From Chitinophagaceae bacterium IBVUCB2 (lineage in GTDB: Bacteria > Bacteroidota > Bacteroidia > Chitinophagales > Chitinophagaceae), in assembly GCA_002127295.1 (NCBI GenBank), contig NFUV01000001.1, positions 496,001 through 560,000 of the forward strand: a DNA stretch of 64,000 bases, given 5' to 3'. Numbering within the stretch: the first letter of the stretch is position 1; each line of letters begins with the position of its first letter. The notes below the pieces were generated by a model, which worked only from the letters and a program-made list of their open reading frames with translations, did not search any database and was not told where the DNA came from. Shown here piece by piece: positions 22,042-23,772 of the stretch. The position numbers were made by a program, and so were the translations under genes.

Positions 22042-23772
22042 ATGAGTACGAATTCTGTCAACGCCTCCATCATCACCATCGGCGATGAATTATTGATCGG
22101 CCAAACTATCGATACCAACTCTGCTTTTATTGCACAAGAGTTGAATAAGATCGGTGTATGGGTTCGCCGTCGTGTTGCGGTAGGTGATGTGTATGATGAT
22201 ATCTGGGATGCATTGGACGAAGAAGGAAAACAATCTGACATAATTATTATCACAGGCGGACTTGGGCCAACTGCAGATGATATTACCAAACCGCTTCTCT
22301 GTAACTACTTTGGTGGCAAATTGGTGCTGGATGAAAAAGTATTAGCTCATGTAAAATATTTATTTGAACAAGTTTTTCGTCGCCCGGGGGCTTTGCTGGA
22401 AAGAAATATTAAACAAGCTGAAGTGCCGGATGTTTGTACAGTGTTGCATAATGCGAGGGGCACGGCGCCAGGGATGATGTTCAGCCCCCCCGCCCCCCGA
22501 AGGGGGGATTTAAAACCCAAAAACTCAAATAAACATTTAGCTTATTCAAGAGCAGATGCCTTAAGCTATGGATTACTAAAAGACTTTGTAAAGAATCATC
22601 GACAAAACCCAACTGAAGCGGAAAGAGCTTTATGGGAGATTGTAAGAGGGAATAAAATGGCTGGTTTCAAATTCAGAAGGCAGCATATAATTTCAAATTA
22701 CATTGCGGATTTTATCTGTCTTTCAGAAAAACTAATTATTGAAGTAGATGGCTTACATCATCAATTACCAGAAAATAAAATTAATGATGAAGAAAGAACT
22801 AAAGAATTAAACAAATATGGATTTGATGTTCTTCGCTTTACAAATTCACAAATACTAAATGATACTGATGATGTAATTAACACAATTGTTCTTCGATTGG
22901 AAGAGGGAAATACAAAACAATCGGAAACCCAGATCCCCCTTTCGGGGAGCGGGGGGGCTTTGTTTTTTGCACTCCCCGGCGTTCCCCACGAAATGAAAGG
23001 CCTTATAAAAGATGAAGTAATTCCTAGATTATTAAAAGAGTTCGATATGCCAGCAATCATTCACCGAACTGCTTTTACAGCCGGAACCGGTGAATCAATT
23101 CTTGCAGAATTATTATTAGATTTCGAACAAAAATTACCTTCACATATTAAACTGGCTTACCTGCCAAATTATGGAATGGTAAAACTTCGGCTTACCGCAC
23201 AAGGAAACAACAAAGGCGACGTAGAAAAAGAACTATTTCCCTATTTTGAAAAATTGCAAGAATTGGTGAAAGAATGTTTAGTAACCAATGAAGATGAAGG
23301 ACTGGAAATAGTCGTTGGGAAATTATTAAAGTCAAAAAATAAAACAATGGGTACCGCCGAAAGTTGTACCGGCGGATATATTGCACATTTAATTACTGCT
23401 GTTCCTGGTTCTTCGGGCTATTATAAAGGCAGTGTGGTGAGCTATGCAAATGAAGTAAAAGAAAATGTGCTGGGAGTTCAAAAAGAAACCTTGAAAACTG
23501 TTGGTGCGGTAAGTGAACAAACCGTAAAAGAAATGGTAAGCGGTGCTATAAAAAGGTTGAATGTTGATTTTGCCCTGGCAACCTCCGGCATTATGGGGCC
23601 GGATGGTGGAAGTGAAGAAAAGCCTGTGGGTACCGTTTGGCTGGCAGTGGGCAATCATCAAAAAATTGAAACCCTACAACTGAATCTACGTTTCGACCGG
23701 CAGCGAAATATTGGTATGACAGCTGCCAATGCCCTTAATTTTCTGCGCAAATTTATCATTGCTAACGGTTGA
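22042..23772 (+). CDS. cinA: CinA nucleotide-related amidase, interrupted in frame by a DUF559 nuclease domain
   Basis: CinA proteins combine an N-terminal MoCF-like domain with pyrophosphatase activity and a C-terminal nicotinamide-mononucleotide deamidase. This 576-residue frame has both: IITIGDELLIGQTIDTNSAFIA and ITGGLGPTADDITK, then TMGTAESCTGGYIAHLITAVPGSSG and ATSGIMGPDGGSEEKPVGTVW. Residues 148-306 (22483-22959) are foreign: they join the conserved ARGTAPGMMF to LFFALPGVPHEMKG. Without these 159 residues the protein is 417 residues long, which is normal. The inserted segment carries a DUF559 nuclease domain and ends in inverted repeats. Whether the interrupted CinA is active, cleaved or non-functional cannot be told from sequence. 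Confidence 0.93.
   Translation: MSTNSVNASIITIGDELLIGQTIDTNSAFIAQELNKIGVWVRRRVAVGDVYDDIWDALDEEGKQSDIIIITGGLGPTADDITKPLLCNYFGGKLVLDEKVLAHVKYLFEQVFRRPGALLERNIKQAEVPDVCTVLHNARGTAPGMMFSPPAPRRGDLKPKNSNKHLAYSRADALSYGLLKDFVKNHRQNPTEAERALWEIVRGNKMAGFKFRRQHIISNYIADFICLSEKLIIEVDGLHHQLPENKINDEERTKELNKYGFDVLRFTNSQILNDTDDVINTIVLRLEEGNTKQSETQIPLSGSGGALFFALPGVPHEMKGLIKDEVIPRLLKEFDMPAIIHRTAFTAGTGESILAELLLDFEQKLPSHIKLAYLPNYGMVKLRLTAQGNNKGDVEKELFPYFEKLQELVKECLVTNEDEGLEIVVGKLLKSKNKTMGTAESCTGGYIAHLITAVPGSSGYYKGSVVSYANEVKENVLGVQKETLKTVGAVSEQTVKEMVSGAIKRLNVDFALATSGIMGPDGGSEEKPVGTVWLAVGNHQKIETLQLNLRFDRQRNIGMTAANALNFLRKFIIANG
22483..22509 (+). repeat. Left terminal inverted repeat of the cinA insertion
   Basis: 27 bp reading AG, seven C, G, six C, GAA, six G, AT. 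It matches the reverse complement of 22933-22959 at 25 positions. Within it, six C and six G (22493-22498 and 22502-22507) fold on themselves around GAA. Confidence 0.9.
22933..22959 (-). repeat. Right terminal inverted repeat of the cinA insertion
   Basis: 27 bp whose reverse complement equals the left repeat except for one C-to-T and one G-to-A difference. Its own CCCC-TTTC-GGGG core can also form a hairpin. Confidence 0.9.

Follow-up and report, generated by a model that had tools for sequence, protein, structure and literature searches.

The usual view is that homing endonucleases can occupy conserved genes only within a self-splicing shelter, and that RAYT transposases move paired repeats (REP/REPIN) to new places. 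A palindromic element of the Rickettsia type is not known to carry a gene of its own. Palindromic repeats within open reading frames, including tRNA synthetase and uvrA genes, are described as Rickettsia palindromic elements and intragenic REPs in the available part of one account (PMC3733652). As to the DUF559 domain, the accessible portion of a second paper mentions a DUF559 gene of the EDxHD family among intein-containing genes (PMC9403480), and excerpts of a third present VsrA of Caulobacter as studied in methylation-linked DNA damage (PMC12907096). No account of in-frame DUF559 units with palindromic ends was found in searches of an open-access library.

Such a unit lies within cinA in the window, by which we mean the whole 64-kb stretch of DNA that was analysed (Table 1). 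The original prediction of a 477-bp unit with 27-nt inverted ends (25 of 27 positions matching), placed in frame at codon borders, was confirmed. Indeed, the arms are 93% complementary with a spacing of 423 nt, the borders at 441 and 918 nt from the cinA ATG are both codon borders, and the frame stays open across the whole unit. Its DUF559 domain, predicted to be apparently intact and Vsr-like, is recovered by Pfam at 119.3 bits between the CinA domains, namely MoCF_biosynth (residues 10-123), CinA_KH (342-410) and CinA (421-571); between the element ends, Pfam gives only DUF559 and a weak MTES_1575 REase model. Upon removal of the unit CinA has 417 residues, the normal length that had been claimed, and falls within the range of alleles lacking it, which includes 416 (G021) and 422 (G141). 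The exact hairpin CCCCC-(2-6)-GGGGG occurs in the 64-kb window in the left arm only, as two overlapping matches, compared with a mean of 0.05 in shuffled sequences, one of 100 of which also reached two. Folded alone, the RNA of 501 nt has a minimum free energy of -137.1 kcal/mol (z -5.05) and pairs the two element ends.

Table 1. Features of the cinA locus and of the unit within it (positions in the window)
Feature	Position	Strand	Remarks
cinA with in-frame unit	22042..23772	+	576 aa; MoCF_biosynth, CinA_KH and CinA flank DUF559 in a single frame
Whole element, 477 bp	22483..22959	+	inverted arms; missing from empty cinA alleles
Left end: C-rich head and hairpin CCCCCC-GAA-GGGGGG	22483..22509	+	translated SPPAPRRGD
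Right end, mirror of the left end	22933..22959	+	translated IPLSGSGGA
DUF559 nuclease domain, residues 180-286	22579..22899	+	Pfam, E 9.2e-35; model fold
Conserved Glu194 of the DUF559 domain	22621..22623	+	alignment of copies
Conserved Asp223 (DF motif)	22708..22710	+	alignment of copies
E234-x-D236-G-x-x-H240 motif, putative metal-binding centre	22741..22761	+	alignment of copies
Transcript stem joining both ends, about 28 bp	22471..22971	+	RNA folding prediction

The genome of the window (G000) holds two further related loci. One is another pair of these inverted hairpins, spanning 191 bp without DUF559 (C2:963633-963823; L009 1634-1824); one arm directly follows the stop of a prfC-like gene and the other is read in frame close to the beginning of a GNAT-like gene, both genes named by reading. 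Moreover, a free-standing DUF559 gene of 127 aa without clear paired ends (C2:1243621-1243944; L002 1501-1824) is followed downstream by broken C-rich repeats.

Comparison of cinA alleles indicates that the position is variably occupied. Once 7 of 59 loci with an unreadable junction are set aside, nine of the 52 readable alleles are full, three retain only a hairpin stump and 40 are empty, the stump class having been set by motifs picked after inspecting the alleles and one allele with a 24-residue linker and no hairpin (L219) being counted as empty. The whole unit is present in cinA of 6 of the 35 genomes of the genus (the window's genome, G125, G147, G138, G148 and G131) and of 4 of the 117 in the family draw, where G012 adds a fifth at a contig edge; besides that of the window, the 29 family cinA loci comprise three full, two stump, 22 empty and two with an unreadable junction. 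In G117 both cinA contigs (L206, L207) terminate inside C-rich element ends; such elements may break short-read assemblies and so be undercounted. The stump alleles (G120, G074, G100) keep the hairpin alone, in frame and at the same cinA position. Given the 40 empty alleles, and since a well-supported fork of the CinA tree joins the closely related G125 (full) and G141 (empty) as sisters, the domain is not an ancestral fusion shared by all relatives. Along that tree (insert removed, 52 rows), full or stump versus empty requires nine changes against a shuffled mean of 11.0 (29 of 500 shuffles as low), and the full label seven against 8.4 (49 of 500), so the labels show hardly more clustering than they do after shuffling.

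The junctions and flanks of these alleles are informative on how the unit arrives. The insertion is not a clean one: where an exemplary empty junction reads F-K-R-D-G-K-V-F-I-S-L, about 2-5 codons are missing from full alleles (junctions read by eye). The target stretch is thus, going beyond the original prediction, partly replaced as far as these junctions can be read, and the part concerned (F-K-R-D-G-K-V-F in the empty allele) looks like a beta-turn. Neither a target duplication at the cinA junctions nor a common target sequence was found. In the flanks, pairs of full alleles are more alike than pairs of a full and an empty one, the excess being calculated as a residual that accounts for phylogeny only via regression on distant identity. 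Within 60 nt of the junction, none of 2000 label permutations reached this excess when third positions were used, and 8 did so when all sites were used. At 30 nt the counts were 4 and 42 of 2000, and at 90 nt 0 and 71 of 2000, respectively; 37 of 53 rows were kept, nine of them full, and the 16 dropped for alignment shifts included one full allele. In parallel, the pair G125 and G141, chosen post hoc, is identical at 93 of 120 sites near the junction versus 533 of 600 elsewhere (p 0.0016). Homing co-converts flanks, as stated in the available part of PMC3943268, and the flanks shared among full alleles are the co-conversion-like pattern that such a process would leave; plain allele exchange would leave it likewise.

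The interrupted proteins appear to work with the nuclease in place, without any sign of splicing in their sequences. In particular, an interrupted leucine-tRNA ligase (LeuRS) is the sole LeuRS, counting matches above cut-off, in all 10 genomes tested (94-100% complete), and since it is the only one found, its product must function either while still containing the unit or once the unit has been taken out in a way that leaves no known signature. Outside these 10 genomes, G012 (72% complete) has two LeuRS-like loci with units (L154 and L164). The insertion stretch in LeuRS is variable in length even among relatives without the unit there. In G110 (C65, L035), one of the 10 genomes tested, the unit-bearing LeuRS is split further downstream into frames of 810 and 279 aa, through either a real break or a sequencing error, and three LeuRS of the genus (L297, L299, L303) carry elsewhere short insert peptides that look hairpin-coded from their protein letters. 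A removal of the unit before the protein works, by intein-like splicing, as an RNA intron or by ribosome bypassing across the end-joining stem, would suit the stable RNA stem formed by the element ends and the need for host proteins to remain functional. However, a Pfam scan of the cinA product (E up to 0.001) detected no intein domain, and the right border is not intein-like, as the unit ends in Ala, with Leu next and no Asn. Similarly, no group I or II intron family of Rfam was matched at E up to 1 (22300-23100), the frame is open through the unit in embedded copies (true by selection of these copies), and cinA retains in-frame hairpin stumps, thus making removal very improbable.

The unit belongs to a broad family. 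A total of 171 distinct DUF559 copies was collected, 110 of which are embedded, i.e., have at least 90 aa of frame on both sides, a proportion that is not a natural rate as the set is biased towards embedded copies: one source search was queried with embedded domains and its best 80 of 555 were kept, and others favoured long frames. At least three of the 110 contain runs of N. A less biased rate is 43 of 150 among the matches listed (best first), in frames of at least 300 aa, from 296 Bacteroidota genomes, with frame lengths transcribed by hand. DUF559 is found at E<=0.001 in 60 of 117 Chitinophagaceae genomes, with many copies in frames of 500-1400 aa, and 126 of the 296 genomes of the phylum-wide draw have a match at 1e-15.

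Across these copies the nuclease domain is well preserved, the six putative active-site positions being retained in 109-110 of the 110 embedded ones. The equivalent of Glu194 is E in 110/110 embedded and 60/61 other copies (one gap), that of Asp223 is D in 171/171, and E234, D236 and H240, part of the E-x-D-G-x-x-H motif that we take to be the metal-binding centre, are kept in 109/110, 110/110 and 110/110 embedded copies, respectively, and each in 61/61 others. The modelled domain folds like 3hrl, I-Bth0305I (3r3p) and Vsr; 3hrl, the closest structure, is not a known homing enzyme. PADLOC adds an HEase match at 2.6e-4 (18.8 bits). By its conserved acidic residues and predicted fold, the domain qualifies as a putative nuclease of the PD-(D/E)XK/Vsr-like type, and by its likeness to 3r3p and the HEase match, with 3hrl closer, it would belong to a known homing family. 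Purifying selection on the domain is about as strong as on the host protein, according to a rough dN/dS in which pS is near saturation and 7 of the 8 copies entered were motif-found.

The hosts of the 110 embedded copies form 23 groups, and an NCBIfam scan of 20 representatives placed 14 above the curated cut-off and three below, leaving three unnamed. Those above are MetH, the leucine-, methionine- and isoleucine-tRNA ligases, chorismate synthase AroC, adenine deaminase, UvrA, RecG, an ABC-F protein, PaaZ, urocanate hydratase, HsdR, an RdgB-type pyrophosphatase and IspG; the best matches under the cut-off are IcmF and two aminotransferases. With CinA added, at least 15 host families can be named. 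Both MetH and LeuRS have several sites of interruption, and two copies occur together in one LeuRS (L015). In several genomes, HsdR-like proteins (L010, L246, L251, L260; only L010 was included in the NCBIfam scan) have the unit immediately before the motif GVIWHTQGSGKSLSM. Beyond the usual range, contigs titled Ignavibacterium (L090, L115) carry the unit in MetH, and the closest relative of their domains in the set is that of a Chitinophagaceae MetH (L021; 66-69% identity), while a contig titled Nitrotoga (L117), perhaps misbinned, encodes a Flavobacterium-like MetH with the unit. The purifying selection, together with the presence of DNA repair or restriction proteins among the hosts (UvrA, RecG, HsdR), could indicate a domain accreted for the benefit of the host, e.g., a repair nuclease on CinA, UvrA or RecG. 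We give this reading hardly any credence, as many hosts are unrelated to DNA (tRNA ligases, MetH, chorismate synthase, IspG), presence varies between close relatives, and neither the end repeats nor the stumps without nuclease fit with it.

The ends of the unit were evaluated by comparing the best inverted repeat from 300 bp upstream to 300 bp downstream of each copy with 40 dinucleotide shuffles. All shuffles were exceeded in 87 of 121 embedded copies (80/110 and 7/11 in the two sets) and in 58 of 79 others (45/61 and 13/18), compared with 7 of 187 control windows shifted outwards by 500 bp, about a quarter of DUF559 copies being without clear ends. Typically, an end consists of a C-rich head, a short spacer (e.g., TAA) and a hairpin, and the opposite end mirrors this order, with variants such as GCCCCCC-TAAAT-CCCCC.. 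and GCCTCACCCC-TAA-CCCCTCTCC... Copies in genes and between genes are bounded by ends of the same architecture. The expectation that the same repeats would occur at other DUF559 sites is thus borne out for the hairpin architecture, which bounds most copies, but not for the letters, which vary among copies, in some cases (L044, L209) even within a single copy from end to end, and do not all follow C7-G-C6-GAA-G6. Nor is a unit length divisible by three a general rule: among 80 embedded copies with clear repeats, tip-to-tip length was 0, 1 or 2 modulo 3 in 25, 27 and 28 copies, with tips found by alignment and fuzzy. The hairpin ends and the DUF559 domain do fit the earlier description of a palindromic element with its own nuclease. 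The hairpin ends would probably serve as signals for recombination or nicking, and their lack of stops in usable frames would make the unit tolerable.

Similar repeats also exist apart from any gene. In G325 a short gene-less repeat pair, searched with an 88-bp query that is palindromic and so matches both strands, gave 41 matches at about 20 places, and a stand-alone DUF559 gene sits between two copies of the pair; apart from the enzyme, a REPIN and its gene are arranged in this way. The repeat heads are GCC(T/C).. or GAACC.. in the copies looked at, with no GTAG/CGTC tag. Transposition may be considered as the main route, with the nuclease recognising the hairpin ends and moving both the unit and shorter REP/REPIN-like pairs, as proposed for RAYT transposases, and with site sharing reflecting the few places that tolerate insertion. 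In line with it are the resemblance of the ends to paired inverted REPs, the arrangement in G325, the at least 15 named host families and the CP1 domains of LeuRS, which look separately acquired. Conversely, jumps look rare, since the 16 pairs of embedded copies that share a genome, among the genomes available, show only 39-59% identity (one pair with the same site label) and the nearest relative lies at the same site for 68 of 96 embedded copies from sites with at least two members (shuffled mean 12.8, maximum 27). The flank sequence common to full cinA alleles and the lack of target duplication at their junctions also argue against transposition as the main route, which we consider unlikely, though the most serious of the alternatives.

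Domains and hosts were also compared site by site. In each of the eight site groups the mean identity among domains is lower than that among their hosts. Nevertheless, at the B12-linker site of MetH 63 of 496 pairs have domains more than 3 points more alike than their hosts (e.g., L087 and L095, domain 0.71 versus host 0.57), which suggests horizontal arrival; the same excess is seen in 7 of 28 pairs at the second MetH site and 3 of 36 in cinA, and in none at LeuRS CP1 (0/119), MetRS (0/15), IleRS (0/15), LeuRS-C (0/10) and IcmF (0/10). At LeuRS CP1 mean identity is 0.50 for the domain versus 0.70 for the host, which suggests that different lineages entered this site. The five of eight site groups without any such pair would suit a passive passenger, spread by ordinary recombination of host alleles or by descent with the nuclease not driving, as would the flank sharing and patchiness that plain allele exchange also predicts. 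Yet a passenger should decay, whereas the nuclease residues are kept in nearly all copies under host-like purifying selection, and the stumps show that loss is possible; we thus hold passive spread to be improbable.

All in all, a non-splicing, in-frame, homing-type mobile element with REP-like ends is the explanation that we favour as probable. Its mobility and in-frame residence are well supported, and the original reading of a small in-frame mobile element is supported; beyond that reading, the nuclease looks akin to homing endonucleases and its spread looks to occur mainly within a site, with shared flanks. The unit would comprise a Vsr/EDxHD-like nuclease domain, linkers and two inverted, hairpin-forming REP-like ends, and the host gene would be translated straight through, giving a protein in which the nuclease forms an added domain within a turn or linker that tolerates it. 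The nuclease would cut an allele without the unit, and repair off the occupied allele would copy the unit with tens of bases of flank; the flank sharing is statistical, and its causation by the nuclease is presumed, as are nuclease-driven homing itself and any action of the nuclease on the hairpins. Rare jumps, as the host range suggests, would seed new genes, and later loss of the nuclease would leave an in-frame hairpin stump, the three cinA stumps presumably descending from full units. Site fidelity and flank sharing lead us to place homing ahead of REP-type transposition, in favour of which the ends and the host range speak, and both may be true on different time scales. Against homing, ordinary homologous allele exchange would carry flanks too, and plain descent would also yield nearest neighbours at the same site.

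As to its significance, a homing-related nuclease is found here inside tRNA ligases, methionine synthase, chorismate synthase and CinA, none of which shows a sign of splicing. This would account for part of the scattered DUF559 annotation in Bacteroidota, supply a candidate mobiliser for their REP-like palindromes and offer a natural record of the sites in essential proteins that tolerate insertion of a whole domain. We tentatively raise, at somewhat less than even confidence, a class of selfish elements that homes into conserved protein genes without splicing and, through its REP-like ends, also serves as mobiliser of a Bacteroidota REP/REPIN system, in the role of a RAYT. If true, the nuclease would be permanently carried as a translated domain of essential enzymes.

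The unit can finally be set against the systems that it resembles. Like homing endonuclease elements, it has full and empty alleles at one cinA position, and its nuclease recalls the EDxHD/Vsr-like homing endonucleases (I-Bth0305I, PDB 3r3p), but here the frame runs through, the ends are palindromic and there is no surrounding intron or intein. With inteins bearing a homing endonuclease it shares an in-frame, nuclease-bearing insert, here without splicing domain or splice residues, and with VsrA of Caulobacter a Vsr-like DUF559 domain, although the gene of VsrA is free-standing in the part of that report available (PMC12907096). The elements of Rickettsia are likewise in-frame palindromic repeats in coding genes, yet they encode tens of residues and the accessible text describes no nuclease for them (PMC3733652), whereas the cinA unit encodes one. 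With REP/REPIN and RAYT the likeness lies in paired inverted hairpin repeats around a short nuclease gene and in gene-less copies elsewhere, while the enzyme is DUF559 of the PD-(D/E)XK type instead of an HUH tyrosine transposase, the GTAG/CGTC tag is missing and the gene often lies within another gene. Collectively, the unit fails the defining tests of intein, intron and RAYT, and seems to work like a homing element while being built like a REPIN.
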